Assembly (NCBI GenBank): GCA_017617035.1
Contig: JAFZWV010000021.1
Location: 1-64,000, forward strand
Source: Bacteroidales bacterium
GTDB taxonomy: Bacteria; Bacteroidota; Bacteroidia; Bacteroidales; UBA932
Reading direction: 5' to 3'
DNA length: 64,000 nt
Positions 1,536 through 54,723 of this stretch are shown one piece after another. Each line of letters begins with the position of its first letter. Within the stretch, counting starts at the first letter, position 1. The notes under the pieces were generated by a model that was not told the origin of the DNA, did no database searches, and saw nothing but the letters and a program-made list of their open reading frames with translations. A program made the position numbers and the translations under genes.

Positions 1536-4148
1536 CTAAATACCTAATTCAGACTTCATTTGACGCAGCAGATCGAAGGCCTGCATGGGAGTCATGTTGT
1601 CGAGGTCGGCAGCCTCGAGCTTTTCGCGCAGGCCGGCGAGTGCCGGATCGTCGAGCTGGAAGAACGAAAGCTGGAGGCTTCCATCCGCCTCGACCTTGCC
1701 CTGCTTGGACAGGGCTTCCGCGCGTTTTTCGCGCCTCTCGAGCTCGACCAGCGTACGCTCGGCCGATTCTACTACCTCCTTGGGCATGCCCGCGAGGCGG
1801 GCGACATGAATACCGAAACTGTGGGCCACTCCGCCTGGTTCGAGCTTGCGGAGGAAAATCACGTCCTTGCCCTGCTCCTTGACCGCGATGTGGTAGTTCT
1901 TCACGCGCGGGTAGGAGAGTTCGAGGTCGTTGAGTTCATGGTAATGCGTCGCGAACAGGGTCTTGGCGCCACGGCCGTATTTGTGGACATACTCAACCAG
2001 CGCGCGGGCGATCGACATGCCGTCGTAGGTAGAGGTGCCGCGGCCGATTTCGTCGAGCAGAACGAGCGAGCGGGCGCTGAGGTTGTGCATGATCATGGCC
2101 GTTTCGAGCATCTCGACCATGAAGGTCGACTCGCCGCGGGAGATGTTGTCGGTCGCGCCCACGCGGGTGAAAATCTTGTCGAAGTAGCCGATGCGCGCGG
2201 CGTCCGCCGGGACGAACGAACCCGCCTGGGCCATCAGGATGATCAGGGCGGTCTGGCGCAGCAGCGCGCTCTTTCCGGCCATGTTCGGGCCGGTCAGGAT
2301 CATGATCTGGTTGGTGGCGCTGTCCATCCGGATGTCGTTGGGCACGTACTGCTCGCCCGCGGGCATGAGCGTCTCGATCACGGGATGACGGCCGGCCTTG
2401 ATGTCGATCGAGTTCGACTTGTCCATCTCGGGACGGCAGTAGCCATGGTCAAGGGCCTGCTGGGCATAGCCCTGGAGCACGTCGAGCTGCGCGACCACCT
2501 TGCAGTTCGCCTGGATGTCGCGGATGCTGCCCTGGATGTAGGCGATAAGCTCGCCGTAGATGCGGCTTTCGATTTCGTAGATGTTGACCTCGGCGCCGAG
2601 GATCTTCTCCTCGTAGTCCTTGAGTTCCTGGGTGATGTAGCGCTCGGCGCTGACCAGGGTCTGCTTACGGACCCACTCCGGCGGGGCCATGTTCTTGTAG
2701 GCGTTGCGGACTTCGAGGTAGTAGCCGAAGACGTTGTTGTAGCCGATCTTGAGCGACGGGATGCCGGTGCGCTCGCTTTCGCGCTGCTGGAGGTCGAGCA
2801 GGTACTGCTTGCCGCCGGTGGAGATGTTGCGCAGGTCGTCAAGGGTTGCGTCTACGCCTTCCGCGATGACCGGGCCCTTGCCGATTTGGGCGGCGGGGCT
2901 TTCGGTGAGCGTCTCGTTTATGCGGGCGACGACCTTCTCGCAGTTCTTCATCTTCGATGCGAGCTTTTCGAGTGCGTCGACGCCGGAGCCGGCGCAAAGG
3001 TCACGGATAGGGGTCATCTGGGCAAGGCTGCGGCCGAGCTGCATGGTCTCGCGCGGCAGGATCTTGCCTGTCGCAGCGCGGGCGATAATGCGCTCGAGGT
3101 CGCCTACCTTGCTGATTTCGTCCTGGATTTCCTCCAGGGCGCCGTCGTTGTCGTAGAAGAACTGGACGCAGTCGTAGCGCGCGTTCAGTTCGCTTAAGTC
3201 CATGCTCGGCAGCGCGAGCCATTGCCTGAGCAGGCGTGCGCCCATAGGCGAGCAGCAGCGGTCGATGGTCTCGATAAGGCTGACGCCGTCTTTACCGCTC
3301 GCGCTTGCGAAGATCTCGAGGTTGCGTACGGTGAATTTGTCCATCCACACGAACTTCGCTTCATCGATGCGGGAGATGCTGCAGATATTCTTGAGGCCTA
3401 CATGCTGGGTCTGCTCAAGGTAGAAGATCAGCGCGCCGGCGGAGCAAATCGACAGCGGGAAAGTGTCCACGGCGAAGCCCTTCAGGCTCTTCACGCCGAG
3501 CTGCTGGCAGAGCTTTTCGTATGCGGCTTCATAGACGAAGGCCCATTCGTCGACGCTGGTGATATAGTAGTCGCCATAGCGCTCCTTTACTGCGTTGCGT
3601 ACTGAGCGCTCGACTATAAGCTCCTTTGGTTGGAAGGAAGAAAGCAGGGTTCCGATATAATCGAGGCTTCCCTGAGCCACCTGGAAGGTTCCGGTCGAAG
3701 CGTCGAGGAAGGCCGCTCCGCAGACATTGTCTTCGAAGTAGAGGCCGCAAAGGTAGTTGTGCTCTTTCTGGTCGAGCATGCCTTCGCCGAAGGCTACGCC
3801 TGGCGTAAGTATCTCTGTTACACCGCGCTTAACAAGTTTGTTCTTGACGAGCGCGGGGTCTTCCAGCTGGTCGCAGATGGCTACCTTATAGCCTGCGCGG
3901 ATGAGCTTCTGGAGGTAAGTCTCGATTGCATGGTGCGGGAAGCCGGCCATCTCGGTCGGACCCTTCTCGCCGTTCGAGCGCTTAGTGAGGACTAGCCCCA
4001 GGACCTTGCTTACCAGCACGGCGTCGTCGGAGTAGCACTCGTAGAAGTCGCCTACTCGGTAGAGCAGAACGGCTTCGGGGTGCTGGGCTTTCACGGCAAA
4101 GTAGTGCCGCAGCATCGGGGTATCCTCTGTTTTCTTGGTTTTAGCCAT
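1536..4148 (-). CDS. mutS: DNA mismatch repair ATPase MutS
   Basis: Recognises base mismatches and small loops and recruits MutL for repair. The 870-residue length is normal for bacterial MutS1. The N-terminal mismatch-reading motif GDFYE is intact (Phe35, Glu37), followed by connector, lever/core and clamp domains. The C-terminal ABC-type ATPase carries Walker A GPNMAGKS near residue 620 and the Walker B/signature region VLLDEIGRGTSTYDG. It is the last gene of an apparent rnhB-mrp-mutS operon, starting 4 nt after the mrp stop codon, and it ends in a hairpin. Identity is certain from the intact motifs. Confidence 0.98.
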   Translation of the reverse strand: MAKTKKTEDTPMLRHYFAVKAQHPEAVLLYRVGDFYECYSDDAVLVSKVLGLVLTKRSNGEKGPTEMAGFPHHAIETYLQKLIRAGYKVAICDQLEDPALVKNKLVKRGVTEILTPGVAFGEGMLDQKEHNYLCGLYFEDNVCGAAFLDASTGTFQVAQGSLDYIGTLLSSFQPKELIVERSVRNAVKERYGDYYITSVDEWAFVYEAAYEKLCQQLGVKSLKGFAVDTFPLSICSAGALIFYLEQTQHVGLKNICSISRIDEAKFVWMDKFTVRNLEIFASASGKDGVSLIETIDRCCSPMGARLLRQWLALPSMDLSELNARYDCVQFFYDNDGALEEIQDEISKVGDLERIIARAATGKILPRETMQLGRSLAQMTPIRDLCAGSGVDALEKLASKMKNCEKVVARINETLTESPAAQIGKGPVIAEGVDATLDDLRNISTGGKQYLLDLQQRESERTGIPSLKIGYNNVFGYYLEVRNAYKNMAPPEWVRKQTLVSAERYITQELKDYEEKILGAEVNIYEIESRIYGELIAYIQGSIRDIQANCKVVAQLDVLQGYAQQALDHGYCRPEMDKSNSIDIKAGRHPVIETLMPAGEQYVPNDIRMDSATNQIMILTGPNMAGKSALLRQTALIILMAQAGSFVPADAARIGYFDKIFTRVGATDNISRGESTFMVEMLETAMIMHNLSARSLVLLDEIGRGTSTYDGMSIARALVEYVHKYGRGAKTLFATHYHELNDLELSYPRVKNYHIAVKEQGKDVIFLRKLEPGGVAHSFGIHVARLAGMPKEVVESAERTLVELERREKRAEALSKQGKVEADGSLQLSFFQLDDPALAGLREKLEAADLDNMTPMQAFDLLRQMKSELGI

Positions 4149-5208: not shown

Positions 5209-5825
5209 TAAAACAATGTTGGTTCGAGTTCTTTGGGGTGGAAGCTTTTGCGGTGGTGCTTCGTGTACCCGTATTTCTTAATTGCCGCTATGTGTTCCGG
5301 AGTGGGGTAGCCTTTGTTGGTTTCCCAGCCGTACTGCGGGAATTCCTTCGCAAGCTTGACCATGTATTCGTCGCGCCAGGTCTTCGCCAGGACCGAGGCC
5401 GCGGCTATGCTCGCATAGGTTGCGTCGCCATGGACAACGGTTTCATACTTTTCGCGGGTGTATTCCGCAAAGGGGCGGAACTTCGGCCCGTCGATCAGAA
5501 GGAACTCCGGCTTAGGCTTGAGTCTTAATACCGCGCGTTGCATTCCAGTCACCGATGCCCATAGGATATTAAGCTTATCTATCTCCTCTGCGCTCACCTC
5601 CTCAACGGCCCATGCGATCGCCTCTTTTTCAATAATAGGCCTCAGCTCTTCGCGCTGGTGTTCGGTCATCTGCTTAGAGTCGTTCAGAAGCGGATGATAG
5701 AAGTCCGGCGGGAGTATCACCGCCGCGGCGAACACCGGCCCGGCGAGCGGGCCTCTCCCCGCCTCGTCGCACCCCGCCTCAACCACACCCTCCGTCCTGA
5801 AGGGCCTGAGCCGTATCTCCTTCAT
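5208..5825 (-). CDS. rnhB: Ribonuclease HII
   Basis: Removes ribonucleotides and RNA-DNA hybrids from DNA. At 205 residues it has normal family length, with the N-terminal signature GCDEAGRGPLAGPV providing the first acidic catalytic pair (Asp, Glu), a downstream DGPKF motif, and the TNKGYPT/TKHHRKSF segment typical of the family's C-terminus. It is first in a coupled rnhB-mrp-mutS unit. A TAAATTTG promoter box ends only 7 nt before the ATG, so the message may have almost no leader. The MKEIRLRPF start is the only one compatible with the family N-terminus. Confidence 0.96.
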   Translation of the reverse strand: MKEIRLRPFRTEGVVEAGCDEAGRGPLAGPVFAAAVILPPDFYHPLLNDSKQMTEHQREELRPIIEKEAIAWAVEEVSAEEIDKLNILWASVTGMQRAVLRLKPKPEFLLIDGPKFRPFAEYTREKYETVVHGDATYASIAAASVLAKTWRDEYMVKLAKEFPQYGWETNKGYPTPEHIAAIKKYGYTKHHRKSFHPKELEPTLF

Positions 5826-5832
5826 ATCCTTA

Positions 5833-5840
5833 CAAATTTA
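5833..5840 (-). promoter_or_regulatory. Promoter -7 box of rnhB
   Basis: Minus-strand TAAATTTG ending 7 nt before the rnhB start codon; transcription would begin at or next to the ATG. Confidence 0.5.
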
Positions 5841-5867
5841 ATCAAAATCCCGGTTTTTTCATTTGTG

Positions 5868-6014
5868 CTATTTTGTCTTTGGTTCTCTTTTTTGTCTTGT
5901 GACGGCCGTCTTTTTTGCTGGGCTGGTCTTTTTAGCCATGTGGCGGTCGTCTATTATTGAGGGTCGGGTCTTTTTTTTGTTTGTTTCGGGTTGTTTTGTG
6001 TCGGTTGCGTTCAT
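5868..6014 (-). CDS. Possible small lysine-rich peptide (doubtful)
   Basis: An open frame of 48 codons starts at an ATG 22 nt outside element A and ends 42 nt before rnhB. The product would be strongly basic, with runs such as MAKKTSPAKKTA resembling lysine-rich tails of histone-like proteins. No clear promoter precedes it, and the plus strand here is unusually T-rich, which alone would generate Lys codons on the minus strand. I do not recognise a family; it may be a composition artefact. Confidence 0.2.
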   Translation of the reverse strand: MNATDTKQPETNKKKTRPSIIDDRHMAKKTSPAKKTAVTRQKREPKTK

Positions 6015-6035
6015 CGACAAGCTATTTTCGCGTGT

Positions 6036-6163
6036 ATGACGCACACGGACCCCATCTACGATGTCTTGTAGGTCCCCTCCCTGTGCGGCGAGGGGCAATT
6101 TTGCCCCCAGCCGCACACGCATCAATCACAGGGACCATTCTAATGGGGTTCACTGTGCGTCAT
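6036..6163. repeat. Palindromic element copy A (RAYT-linked family)
   Basis: A 128-bp imperfect palindrome. The outer stem ATGACGCACA / TGTGCGTCAT (6036-6045 with 6154-6163) is perfect and continues after an internal loop as CCCCAT / ATGGGG. A small side hairpin CTAC...GTAG follows, then GGTCCC / GGGACC. The centre is a hairpin GTGCGGC / GCCGCAC (6083-6089, 6110-6116) topped by GGGGCAA / TTGCCCC. The central hairpin is 37 nt from each outer arm. The same plan occurs at 7565-7688, 32045-32188 and 54573-54700. It lies 28 nt upstream of the plus-strand XRE gene. Confidence 0.85.
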
Positions 6164-6191
6164 TTAAGATATAAACTCAGACTTTTTCGAT

Positions 6192-6587
6192 ATGAACATA
6201 TTACTAATCCGACAAAATATTATCAACGCAAGGATTTCCTTGAATTTGACCCAGGTTCAGATGGCGCAATTACTGGGCATTTCCCGCCAGGCTTACATCA
6301 ACATCGAAACCGGCAAGACCGCGCTTATCAACAAACAAATAATCAAGATGTCCCAGAAATGCGACCTGACTCTGGAGCGAATCCTCTTCGGTCATCTCCG
6401 GATGTCCGACACGGTCGAAGTCCTTGTCGAGGAGAATGATCAAATCATCTCCGCCCTGAAAAACAAGTTGGACACCCTGATCCAGTTGTTATATACCGCA
6501 AAGCAGCAAATACTAATGCAAAGCCGTCAGATCGAGGAGCAGCGGGCCCGAATCACCCAGCTTCTCCGCGACCGAAATCACCTCTAA
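6192..6587 (+). CDS. XRE-family regulator with C-terminal coiled coil
   Basis: A 131-residue protein. Residues about 5-60 form an XRE/Cro helix-turn-helix with the recognition segment LGISRQAYINIETGKTA, while residues about 75-131 are polar and heptad-like, consistent with a coiled coil for dimerisation. It is clearly paralogous to the minus-strand protein at 7710-8180: both share GISRQAYIN, a GKTA motif and INKQI. It sits between palindromic element A and the RAYT gene, converging on the latter with a strong hairpin between. Control of the transposase or of the element is an inference from position only. Surrounding DNA is AT-richer than the housekeeping genes. Confidence 0.85.
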   Translation: MNILLIRQNIINARISLNLTQVQMAQLLGISRQAYINIETGKTALINKQIIKMSQKCDLTLERILFGHLRMSDTVEVLVEENDQIISALKNKLDTLIQLLYTAKQQILMQSRQIEEQRARITQLLRDRNHL

Positions 6588-6592
6588 CCAAC

Positions 6593-6620
6593 CAGCGGCT
6601 GCCGGGAAGGGCAGCCGCTG
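6593..6620. terminator. Bidirectional hairpin between XRE gene and RAYT
   Basis: A perfect 11-bp stem CAGCGGCTGCC / GGCAGCCGCTG with a 6-nt loop sits between two convergent genes, 5 nt after the XRE stop and 3 nt before the RAYT stop. Confidence 0.75.
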
Positions 6621-6623
6621 ATA

Positions 6624-7544
6624 TTATTTGATATATCTTCTTAGTTCATTTTCCGGAAGGTATACCAATGTTGCCAATTGCCTGAAACTCAGGCGGTAGG
6701 ATCGTCGAAGTTGTTGGGCGAGGGTTATACGCCTGGGCGCGTCTAGTCGTCGGGCATCGCGGAAACCAAATAGCTGTTTACACACATTGCCGCATATTGT
6801 TCTCGCCTCCAGGTCGTCCATTGATATGCCGCGATACTCAGCCATTTTGCGCAACAGCTCCTCTTCCCGTTGTTTTGGGCTTGATGAGAAAACCCTAAAA
6901 CGGTTATGAGTTTTGTAAATACTTTCGAAGCGAGAGGTGTCGATATAATTGTACGGGAGGATTAGTCCGTTGCAAATCAGCCAGTTATCAGGGATTGTTA
7001 ATATTCTGGAATGAACGATCTCTCTTCTATCCCTGGTTCCCAGTTCGCCAAATCTGATCGGAGTATGAATGATGCTTTGGTCGTCGTGGTGCCAGACGGG
7101 TGTGGAGTATTTGTTCCTGAAGTACATAGAGCCGGTTCCCCAGCGATAATCGTAGTACATGACCGGCTTTCCGTCCTTGGTGGGTTGGATAATAGTGTAG
7201 ACTGCTACATTAAGCAGGTAATCAAGATCGTCTCCTATTGGATACAGCTCACAATGAAGGGAGAAGGGCATGCCTTTCGGGTGCGTCTTCGCCGCATAGT
7301 GGCGAGATTGATTTTCATATAGCTTCATGAAGTCAAGGCACGCCTGTTTGGTCCCCCACAATAGACCATGCGGGTGAGTGTCCTCGAAGGAATAAGAGAC
7401 GACTTCTGCGTCGGAATTGGCAGCGCAAACTCCCATCAGATTGAAGTTGGCGCGATAGTCTCGTTCGCAAATAATGAAATTTCGAGTTTCTGCCCCGTGG
7501 GCACAGAAATGATAGTACTGTTTGCTTTCCATAGTTGCTGACAT
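6624..7544 (-). CDS. REP-associated tyrosine transposase (RAYT, Y1/HUH superfamily)
   Basis: A 306-residue HUH single-strand nuclease of the IS200-like Y1 family, Bacteroidetes RAYT type. The HUH motif is HPH (57-59) in THPHGLLWG, matching MPNHVHLLL-type motifs. The likely catalytic tyrosine is Tyr116 in LLNVAVYTIIQP, aligned with the AYIDRNP region of relatives, followed by YRWGTGS, the YPWGS counterpart. The C-terminal 35 residues look like a DNA-binding helix-turn-helix. I chose the ATG at 7544; a longer frame to 7571 needs a GTG inside the repeat, and an ATG at 7532 is also possible. Palindromic element B begins 20 nt upstream and element A lies downstream, as RAYTs are flanked by their REP palindromes. 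No IS ends or target duplications were seen. Confidence 0.85.
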   Translation of the reverse strand: MSATMESKQYYHFCAHGAETRNFIICERDYRANFNLMGVCAANSDAEVVSYSFEDTHPHGLLWGTKQACLDFMKLYENQSRHYAAKTHPKGMPFSLHCELYPIGDDLDYLLNVAVYTIIQPTKDGKPVMYYDYRWGTGSMYFRNKYSTPVWHHDDQSIIHTPIRFGELGTRDRREIVHSRILTIPDNWLICNGLILPYNYIDTSRFESIYKTHNRFRVFSSSPKQREEELLRKMAEYRGISMDDLEARTICGNVCKQLFGFRDARRLDAPRRITLAQQLRRSYRLSFRQLATLVYLPENELRRYIK

Positions 7545-7564
7545 TAAATGGTTTTTGCGGAGAA

Positions 7565-7688
7565 GACGCACCGGCGGCTAGCCCTGATCGGCCTTATGCG
7601 GGCGGCGTGGTGCGGCTAAGGGCAAAATTGCCCCCAGCCGCACGCTTACCGGCCGCAAACCGCCGCTCAGCGCCCGTGGCCGTGCGTC
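7565..7688. repeat. Palindromic element copy B (RAYT-linked family)
   Basis: A 124-bp palindrome directly upstream of the RAYT start. Outer arms GACGCAC / GTGCGTC (7565-7571, 7682-7688) extend inward with GGC pairing. The central hairpin GTGCGGCT / AGCCGCAC (7610-7617, 7636-7643) is capped by GGGCAAAATTGCCC. Exactly 38 nt separate outer arm and central hairpin on each side, and these side arms can partly pair (TGCGGGCGG against CCGGCCGCA with one mismatch). Confidence 0.85.
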
Positions 7689-7709
7689 AAGCTCGCGAAA
7701 ATGAGTTTT

Positions 7710-8180
7710 TCATTCCCGGCGTCCCTTGAAGGAGCGGAGTTCCTTGCGGAGGGAGAGGTTTTCCTGGGCGAGGTGGGCGATGCGGTTTTTCTGCTCCTCG
7801 ATAAGGTGATTCTGGGTCTTGATGTTCTGGCGCTCGGCGAAGATGAGTTCGGTCAGGACATCGAGTTTTTCCTTGAGCGAAGATATCTCCTCGTCTTTCT
7901 CTTCGACAAGGGCTGTCATCTGCTCCTTGTAGGCCTCGTTTTCCTGAAGCATCGCGGAAGAAACCTCCTCGATGCTGTAGCCATACATGATTTTCTCTTC
8001 CGGCATATCGCAGGTTTCGGCCATCTTGGTAATCTGCTTGTTGATTACTGCGGTCTTGCCGTGTTCGAGATTGATGTAAGCCTGACGGGAGATTCCCAGT
8101 TTGTCGGCCATTTCCGCCTGAGTCAGGTTCAGGGATTCGCGGACTTTCGCGATGTTTTTCTTAATGCTTGAGTTGCTCAT
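7710..8180 (-). CDS. XRE-family regulator with long coiled coil
   Basis: A 156-residue protein with an N-terminal XRE helix-turn-helix (about residues 8-65, core LGISRQAYINLEHGKTA) and a long C-terminal coiled coil (about 80-150) rich in Glu, Lys and Leu heptads. It is a paralogue of the plus-strand protein at 6192-6587 with a longer coiled-coil tail. The start is the ATG at 8180 (MSNSSIKK); an in-frame upstream extension to 8240 has no support. It is separated from secDF by a 104-bp palindrome and followed by palindromic element B. Target is unknown. Confidence 0.87.
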   Translation of the reverse strand: MSNSSIKKNIAKVRESLNLTQAEMADKLGISRQAYINLEHGKTAVINKQITKMAETCDMPEEKIMYGYSIEEVSSAMLQENEAYKEQMTALVEEKDEEISSLKEKLDVLTELIFAERQNIKTQNHLIEEQKNRIAHLAQENLSLRKELRSFKGRRE

Positions 8181-31971: not shown

Positions 31972-32044
31972 TAATATCGCAAGTACATTTTACCCCCGGG
32001 CGACTCGCATGAGCCGCCCTTTTTTGTGCCGAGAGGGGGCGGAT

Positions 32045-32188
32045 TCGCGGAAGTGACGCACGTGGAGCGGGGTGAAGAGGTTGTCTGACGGGGGACAAGG
32101 TGCGGCTGGGGGCAAAATTGGGCTCAGACGCACACAAACAAACCCCACGCGCCCCTCTCGCCGCGGTTGATGTGCGTCACATCCGCGA
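32045..32188. repeat. Palindromic element copy C (RAYT-linked family)
   Basis: A 144-bp copy inside the glucan locus. The outer stem is longest here: TCGCGGA, an A-A mismatch, then GTGACGCAC, pairing with GTGCGTCAC and TCCGCGA (32045-32061 with 32172-32188). The central hairpin GTGCG...CGCAC (32100-32104, 32129-32133) keeps the GGGGCAAAATTG core but is more degenerate. The spacing from outer arm to hairpin is 38 nt on both sides, as in the other copies. Confidence 0.8.
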
Positions 32189-32251
32189 TCTCCCCCGCCC
32201 CAAAAAACAGCCTCAATCCCCCCTGAATTTTGATATTGTCGTCAGAATGAG

Positions 32252-54522: not shown

Positions 54523-54572
54523 GGTTCTCTCTTTCCGCCGATCTCAGACTCTTTCCCTACTCTTCCGCAAAC

Positions 54573-54700
54573 CAGACGCACAGTCACCCAACTCAGAAAG
54601 CCCTGTACGGTATCCCACCTTGCGTGAGGGGCCTAAATAGGCCCTAGACGCAAGGCGAGCCACCCTCAACGCATATCTGGCAGGGGTGTTGGTGCGTCTG
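54573..54700. repeat. Palindromic element copy D (RAYT-linked family)
   Basis: A 128-bp copy after the flavoprotein gene. Outer arms CAGACGCAC / GTGCGTCTG (54573-54581, 54692-54700). The central hairpin is CTTGCGT / ACGCAAG (54619-54625, 54648-54654) with GGGCCTAAATAGGCCC on top. Its hairpin sequence differs from copies A-C yet stays fully paired, and the 37-nt spacing on each side is kept. It fills most of the gap between two convergent genes. Confidence 0.8.
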
Positions 54701-54723
54701 TCTGGCAGAAAAGGATGAATATC

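Follow-up and report, generated by a model that had tools for sequence, protein, structure and literature searches.

Genes for proteins resembling RAYTs (REP-associated tyrosine transposases, REP standing for repetitive extragenic palindrome) have been described as TIRYT genes and TIRtrons where long repeats lie on either side of them, some of these repeats being self-complementary and some having further members scattered through the genome (Di Nocera et al. 2013, PMC3733652). For subclass 2.6 of the TnpAY1 proteins, a Bacteroidetes group, 'atypical secondary structures' are reported beside the genes and again at other places in the genome (Quentin et al. 2018, PMC6006769). Going by the accessible parts of these reports, to which all comparisons with cited work below are limited, they are the nearest published systems to the one considered here, a gene for a putative RAYT-like protein lying between two long palindromes in a stretch of 64,000 nucleotides (nt) from a Bacteroidales bacterium (GenBank assembly GCA_017617035.1, contig JAFZWV010000021.1, positions 1 to 64,000), referred to as the window. 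No description of this family or element turned up among the listed results of open-library searches on RAYT, REPIN, TIRYT, REPtron, Bacteroidetes/Cryptobacteroides transposases, long palindromes in Bacteroides and cloverleafs.

As in TIRtrons, the flanking repeats are long and mostly unrelated to GTAG REPs, some are dispersed, and more than one gene occurs per genome, each with its own repeats (PMC3733652). TIRtron repeats are inverted, whereas those found here are mostly direct (37 direct and 4 inverted of 41), orientation being a weak notion for near-palindromes; the present elements are also about 150 nt long, carry alternating motif copies, are near-fixed in length in the close clade and belong to proteins with a long C-terminal half. 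Subclass 2.6 proteins have a median of 179 amino acids (aa) and a median HuH-Tyr spacing of 82, compared with 288-357 aa and 56-58 here (PMC6006769). A Y1 HUH protein, cognate palindromes adjoining its gene, dispersed hairpin units of defined length and an enzyme-tied motif are shared with RAYT/TnpAREP proteins and REPINs (PMC3116915, PMC8266576), but where those systems have a REP of 20-50 nt or a doublet of 71 or 110 bp (Bertels and Rainey 2011, PMC3116915; PMC8266576), the unit here measures 150 nt and has a conserved centre, there is no GT[AG]G foot, and about 3-10 copies were found per genome instead of hundreds (PMC3116915, PMC8266576). The HUH core fold, and folded DNA flanking the gene on either side, recall the IS200/IS605 elements IS608 and ISDra2, and the same chemistry is expected; unlike in that family, the genes are divergent and not near-identical copies, with two like palindromes in place of distinct left and right ends. 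Cognate palindromes that both flank the gene and are dispersed, a mark of class 2 TnpAY1, were found for the close clade. The first-pass annotation of this DNA had suggested a new type of RAYT-REP system with large structured substrates, a fair label, though for a variant, TIRtrons and subclass 2.6 being already published. We consider it likely that the locus represents a REPtron/TIRtron-like system in which a Y1 HUH endonuclease encoded in the chromosome has a non-autonomous nested palindrome of 150 nt as its dedicated partner.

The gene and its two palindromes

The gene, the two elements that bracket it and two solo copies lie in the window as follows:

6025..6174, plus strand: element A, nested palindrome of 150 nt with its core at 6038-6161 (124 nt), beyond the 3' end of the gene and a helix-turn-helix (HTH) gene; its 3' outer arm is poor
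6624..7544, minus strand: gene for a putative RAYT-like Y1 HUH protein of 306 aa, with H57-P-H59, Y116, Q120 as a possible metal ligand and a helical C-terminal half
7552..7701, plus strand: element B, nested palindrome of 150 nt with its core at 7565-7688 (124 nt), directly upstream of the gene
32042..32191, plus strand: solo element copy in an intergenic gap, core 32055-32178
54562..54711, plus strand: solo element copy in an intergenic gap, core 54575-54698

The minus-strand gene (stop at 6624; start ATG at 7544, or at 7532, which fits the homologues better) is predicted from sequence and structure model to encode a divergent RAYT-like Y1 HUH protein. The motif His57-Pro-His59 and the candidate Tyr116 that had been read from the sequence in the first pass are confirmed, and two alignments that include the window protein (31/31 and 73/73 sequences) show His57, His59 and Tyr116 without variation. 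The larger of these, A4, comprises 72 relatives and omits, of 80 loci, L062, L064, L067, L102, L111 and L120 as near-duplicates or spares and L086 and L092 for their broken frames. The HuH-Tyr spacing is 56-58 in 73/73 sequences, and protein length has a median of 301 aa (range 288-357). Position 120, a likely metal ligand going by PMC6006769, is N in 39/73 and Q in 34/73, the window protein having Q; a check for the Y---NP signature found P at position 121 in 39/73 aligned sequences. The Pfam family PF01797 matches 14 of the 31 members of the smaller alignment at E <= 0.1 and the NCBIfam model REP_Tyr_transpos (NF047646) 14 of the 31 at E <= 0.01, with the window protein among neither set, and a sequence search of the PDB with the family alignment returned nothing at E <= 1.

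An AlphaFold model of the window protein, computed from the window sequence and the sequences of related loci only, reached a mean predicted local distance difference test score (pLDDT) of 94 and a predicted template modelling score (pTM) of 0.77. Its best Foldseek matches were ISDra2 TnpA, the REP-bound RAYT 4er8 and IS608 TnpA (2xm3, 4er8, 2a6o; probability 1.00, E 3e-3 to 4e-3), in alignments of about 110-150 columns that span the N-terminal half. The C-terminal half of the model is helical; in a check for the DnaA-like or HTH domain that TIRYT and subclass 2.1 proteins have at this end, ten C-terminal pieces gave weak, below-cut-off HTH-type Pfam matches and no Pfam match to Bac_DnaA_C. 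By analogy with these relatives, the protein is probably an enzyme that cuts single-stranded DNA.

That the gene is bracketed by two palindromes, as the first pass had claimed, is borne out by the two cores, both exactly 124 nt long, starting with GACGCAC and ending with GTGCGTC. A core size of 124 nt thus stands, and the full element measures 150 nt once an outer inverted repeat, TTTTYGC-N6 ... N6-GCRAAAA, is counted. The first half of the element consists of the outer arm, N6, the motif GACGCAC, about 38 variable nt, the inverse motif and a 20-nt centre with a GGC..GCC hairpin; after the centre follow the motif, about 38 variable nt, the inverse motif, N6 and the outer arm. A 7-nt motif of the GNNGCAC type is therefore found at both ends and a similar one in the inner arms, in alternating orientation, and a GTGC/GCAC core is present in both inner arms of 53/69 elements from many genomes. 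Copies A and B are identical at 64/124 positions, with ends, centre and spacing in common and interiors not, and appear from their sequences to be an old pair.

A covariance model (R1), built from six of the eight copies in the window genome, finds eight places there: A, B, 32042-32191, 54562-54711 and a single place on each of the contigs C24, C15, C23 and C14; the match that ranks after these has E 9.5. The pattern GACGCACN{95,125}GTGCGTC matches five places in this genome, each exactly 124 nt (reversed control 0), and gives seven single matches in the other 100 of 101 compared genomes of the genus, which is probably Candidatus Cryptobacteroides, below the reversed control of 35 matches in 27 genomes. 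Solo copies in ten genomes lie outside any open reading frame (ORF) of >= 120 aa in 33/36 cases.

Folded as single strands and compared with dinucleotide shuffles, elements A and B score z -6.3 and -4.9, with 0/200 shuffles as good in each case. The mean z is -5.6 over 72 tabulated elements, which were hand-picked from model matches with one orientation per place and about a dozen places omitted (partial matches and the flank copies of several loci), and -5.9 over 48 bracketing elements at 24 loci, repeat pairs above 200 nt or scoring below 60 being excluded; 25 control segments average -0.3. Pairing statistics were taken over 69 of the 72 elements (147-152 nt). Twenty outer positions pair at 83% within an element, 78% between copies of the same genome and 63% with arms exchanged across genomes, and the corresponding figures for the 7-nt motif are 92%, 86% and 69%. 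In the six window-genome copies, 86% of cells in 27 proposed pairs pair standardly, a figure that falls to 28-50% if one partner is shifted by 1-3 columns; being invariant across these six, the outer motif stem is uninformative on covariation within that genome. Support extends to the outer and central stems, where the palindrome is strong. Side arms look strong by eye at some loci (L070, L107, L114, L135). GT[AG]G occurs within the first 30 nt of 8/72 elements, at no fixed position. The element can be likened to the terminal repeats of parvoviruses, as an analogy only.

Distribution across the genus and the protein family

Whether copies track the gene in related genomes had been set as a check, and they do. 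The model matches 14/101 genus genomes at E <= 1e-4, namely 10/10 with a gene homologue at least 52% identical and 4/91 others (p 5e-11); leaving out the window genome, which is one of the ten, the former count is 9/9, and one other gene among the ten is truncated at a contig end. The open-length pattern CAAANNGNNGCACN{95,125}GTGCNNCNNTTTG matches 10 genomes, five of them with a close gene, and adds two genomes without one, giving 10/10 compared with 6/91 (p 4e-10); both p values disregard genome relatedness. The element was found by neither model nor pattern search in 85/101 genomes. A first search covered 20 genomes hand-picked for gene presence or absence and was then repeated on all 101 with stricter filters. 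G011, G080 and G095, whose family members are 39-49% identical, were scored as lacking a close gene and have no element at E <= 1e-4. Model R1 favours 150 nt, and length was therefore tested with plain patterns: all 26 places matched by the open-length pattern measure 134-136 nt although 121-151 were permitted (reversed control 0), so that length is near-constant in the close clade while interiors differ.

Assemblies may break at elements, in which case the copy numbers given above are underestimates, and the elements may account for some breaks in metagenome-assembled genomes. Among the 20 hand-picked genomes, four contigs in three genomes begin 1-20 nt before an element (G035:C20, G035:C43, G070:C18, G087:C72).

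The protein family is wider than the close clade. It is matched at E <= 1e-5 in 85/101 genus genomes, often by several divergent members per genome. Of 295 other genomes sampled from the phylum, 18 match at E <= 1e-15, only over residues ~1-153 (the catalytic core), the sample being poor in close relatives and setting no bound on the family. The loci named here are the best 80 of 210 relatives; one of these 80 carries the label Spirochaetales and the others bear the labels Bacteroidales, Bacteroidia, Bacteroidaceae or a Candidatus genus (Cryptobacteroides, Colenecus and Equibacterium among them), and wherever a title gives a host, it is a ruminant or a horse. The Spirochaetales-labelled contig (L122, Water_buffalos_Rumen) reflects either transfer or mis-binning.

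Flanks could be compared at 78 of the 80 loci, those of two being too short. A repeat on both sides of the gene scoring > 30 was present at 41/78 loci, including 20 out of 41 with identity below 38%, compared with 0/710 in a clean control (pairs all < 45% in protein identity, maximum score 17); a first control (n=312, mean 11.5, 99% at 19.4, maximum 73) was inflated by pairing related loci. At the 27 best loci the shared repeat has a median length of 151 nt (range 108-302). Within the close clade (at least 50% identical, distinct), 150-nt model elements lie on both sides of the gene at 20/27 loci, on one side at 4 and on neither at 3, one of the last being a gene cut by a contig end; L092 (50% identity) is outside these 27, and the upstream element of L086 is ~0.9 kb from its gene. 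The proposed link between a RAYT-like gene and large structured repeats is thus strongly supported by elements on both sides at most close loci and by copies that track the gene.

Each locus tends to have elements of its own. Among 25 loci pre-selected for a within-locus score > 45, element alignments between loci reached at most 27.5 over 300 pairs, even where proteins are 60-75% identical (no pair exceeds 75%), while copies within a locus have a median score of 106, high by this choice of loci. Closer relatives share elements by eye or BLAST (L066/L067, L110/L111, L062/L069, L063/L064). The window genome holds three other family members, 20-25% identical to the window protein; L007 (C18), L008 (C26) and L009 (C21) each adjoin different repeats of their own, a cluster with GGTGTCC motifs at L007, an 85-nt palindrome pair of 92% identity at L009 and one upstream palindrome at L008. 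The REP-RAYT theme thereby reaches a large gut genus, with many divergent members that have their own long repeat on both sides. They form a natural series across many species for comparing enzyme, motif and fixed element length, which makes testable the recognition and spread of repeats by RAYT-like enzymes and the joint change of enzyme and repeat specificity.

Motif change, mechanism and rival explanations

Motif types differ between genomes, and the variable motif letters tend to be common to copies within a genome. GACGCAC marks 5/7 window-genome copies of standard length, GAAGCAC 6/6 copies in G035 (a seventh, shorter match does not have it), GCCGCAC 3/3 in G003 and the GAGCGCAC type 6/6 solos of G087, and GGCGCAC recurs across several genomes. 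In some genomes flanking and solo copies share motif and arms, and at some loci the flanking copies are near-identical. G092 and G019 each hold two related units with an element type per unit, 91-96% alike within a locus; the two genes of each genome are ~70% identical at the DNA level. One unit occupies a common site, between matching neighbours, in G071, G092 and G019. Between G071 (GGCGCAC) and G092 (GCTGCAC) the flanks are ~80% and the gene ~73% identical, and no element alignment was reported; the motif therefore differs in both copies at this common site. The two G071 copies are not near-identical to one another. The upstream elements of G052 and G067 are orthologues (81%); the downstream element of G067 is a 95% copy of its upstream one over 168 nt coinciding with the palindrome, and at the downstream place of G052 a diverged element with like ends can be made out by eye. 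On the reading preferred here, these giant double palindromes are substrates that tend to evolve in concert. At another place, a solo element (L173:712-860, compared with L171/L197) is inherited in three species, and in G068 the homology around it stops at one element end, by rearrangement or an assembly join.

TnpAREP requires DNA in single-stranded form, which it cleaves at REP hairpins (PMC8266576; PMC6006769), and by analogy we infer that the present protein cleaves and moves its element. In single-stranded form, as on the lagging strand for instance, the element would fold into a long hairpin through pairing of its outer arms and centre; the HUH protein would read the motif in the paired arms, cut near the base via Tyr116, and the cut element would be moved or copied to other intergenic sites. 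The fixed spacing between outer and inner motif stems suggests that the protein uses it as a ruler, perhaps with two subunits per element. Since the protein requires a fitting motif, gene-adjacent and active source copies would keep similar ends, centres and lengths, while interiors drift and solos record past versions. A bolder version, which we hold to be speculative and rather unlikely, is a self-rewriting system: the HUH gene would keep a 'measured' palindrome of 150 nt with two stems a fixed distance apart, one strand serving both subunits, and the enzyme would overwrite one flanking palindrome, together with selected genomic sites, by the sequence of the other, so that new motifs sweep and lineages acquire their own specificity.

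Several results weigh against a REPtron/TIRtron-like system as drawn here. The window protein alone has no above-cut-off match in Pfam, NCBIfam or PHROG (a stray Pfam match has E 0.085), and Foldseek gave 0 matches at E <= 0.001. The multi-branched fold of the first-pass annotation is unsupported past the outer and central stems: in the set of 69 elements, complementarity between the two ~38-nt interiors is at chance level (5.9 compared with 6.3) and the side arms are no better than shuffles (mean z -0.35), for which reason we claim the outer and central stems only. A cloverleaf was rejected for the close clade, interior complementarity and side arms being no better than with swapped or shuffled interiors. 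The element being common without a RAYT, named beforehand as what would speak against the link, was seen in small part, in 6/91 genomes without a close homologue; at nine element places in four of these, the fetched flanks hold no family gene (the G016 and G032 places are outside this check). At 37/78 loci no repeat pair scores > 30, and a far control within loci (upstream flank compared with 1.5-2.2 kb downstream; n=69, mean 13.7) has a maximum of 105, so some loci hold further repeats nearby. The shared repeat of L057 is not palindromic-looking, palindromy having been checked for part of the repeats. Motifs are mixed in some genomes, with GCTGCAC in 6/9 copies of G092 and at least two types in each of G019, G068 and G071. 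A BLAST search of six genomes with the element of L046, from another clade, found only its own pair and the G052 orthologue, though copies with diverged interiors would escape it. At the L163 site, the one place where presence and absence were compared, G092 has an element and G019 none, and the intergenic regions are too rearranged to resolve a junction, target site or excision product; neither a circle nor a new copy was observed. No clean empty site was found, the L163 comparison being unreadable at the junction and the L161 query returning separate pieces only; inversion of a unit in place in G048 (L015) was not concluded either, one flank matching the opposite side and the other remaining unmatched.

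Flanking copies could also be made alike by generic gene conversion in which the protein has no part. An account that reduces concerted evolution to ordinary homologous conversion between direct repeats, and makes the HUH protein a domesticated bystander or regulator, requires no dedicated enzyme and fits the 95% copy in G067 opposite the diverged element at the same place in G052. If local, such conversion leaves unexplained the motif letters common to dispersed solos in several genomes and the tracking of gene by element, and we regard it as improbable. We think it about equally improbable that the whole palindrome-gene-palindrome unit moves like a composite insertion sequence, solos being scars left when recombination between direct repeats loops out the gene. 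The shared flank repeats are indeed mostly direct and near-identical at many loci, and solo ends are the same as those of flanking copies, but the genes are not near-identical multicopy genes (window genome and the pairs in G092 and G019), one unit sits at a common site with the same neighbours in three genomes, and no match was found on plasmids, phages or viral contigs, so that carriage on any of these was set aside.

Very unlikely, in our judgement, is that the elements are host sites (for a chromosome-organising protein, or terminators or structured RNA) that the gene happens to use. Fixed motif spacing with free interiors does resemble a protein-binding array, elements are kept in the 6/91 genomes without a close gene, and some solo copies are inherited at common sites; yet the element is missing from the search results of 85/101 genomes and present in all ten with the close gene, and distant family members are bracketed by different sequences. 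The window region 5800-8000, with both elements, has no Rfam match, and a structured RNA was set aside on that ground.

Neighbouring genes and other repeats

Two further genes adjoin the elements:

6192..6587, plus strand: HTH_3 regulator gene within the bracket
7710..8165, minus strand: second HTH_3 gene just beyond element B, ~46% identical to the first in aa sequence

These paralogous genes flank the transposase gene, face each other and have below-cut-off similarity to RstR/DicA-type repressors. At 125 other loci, some of them the same place twice, there were 0 homologues (E <= 1e-6); on this ground HTH genes were set aside as a component of the system, and the gene at 6192-6587 is taken for a probable passenger. 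The closest relative of the window gene (L056, 67% identical) has a different small ORF inside its bracket (3419-3715), hydrophobic and membrane-protein-like; brackets can therefore hold passenger genes.

Other repeats lie near solo elements. At L163:1166-1316 (G092:C99) there is another dispersed repeat of ~110-150 nt, with about a dozen copies of 80-94% identity in G082 and several in G019, which possibly belongs to another family member. Tandem arrays of a 52-nt unit adjoin solo elements at L169:283-616 and at L165:323-436 and 489-594; 52 nt is the length of half an element from motif to inverse motif, and the unit of the arrays differs in sequence.

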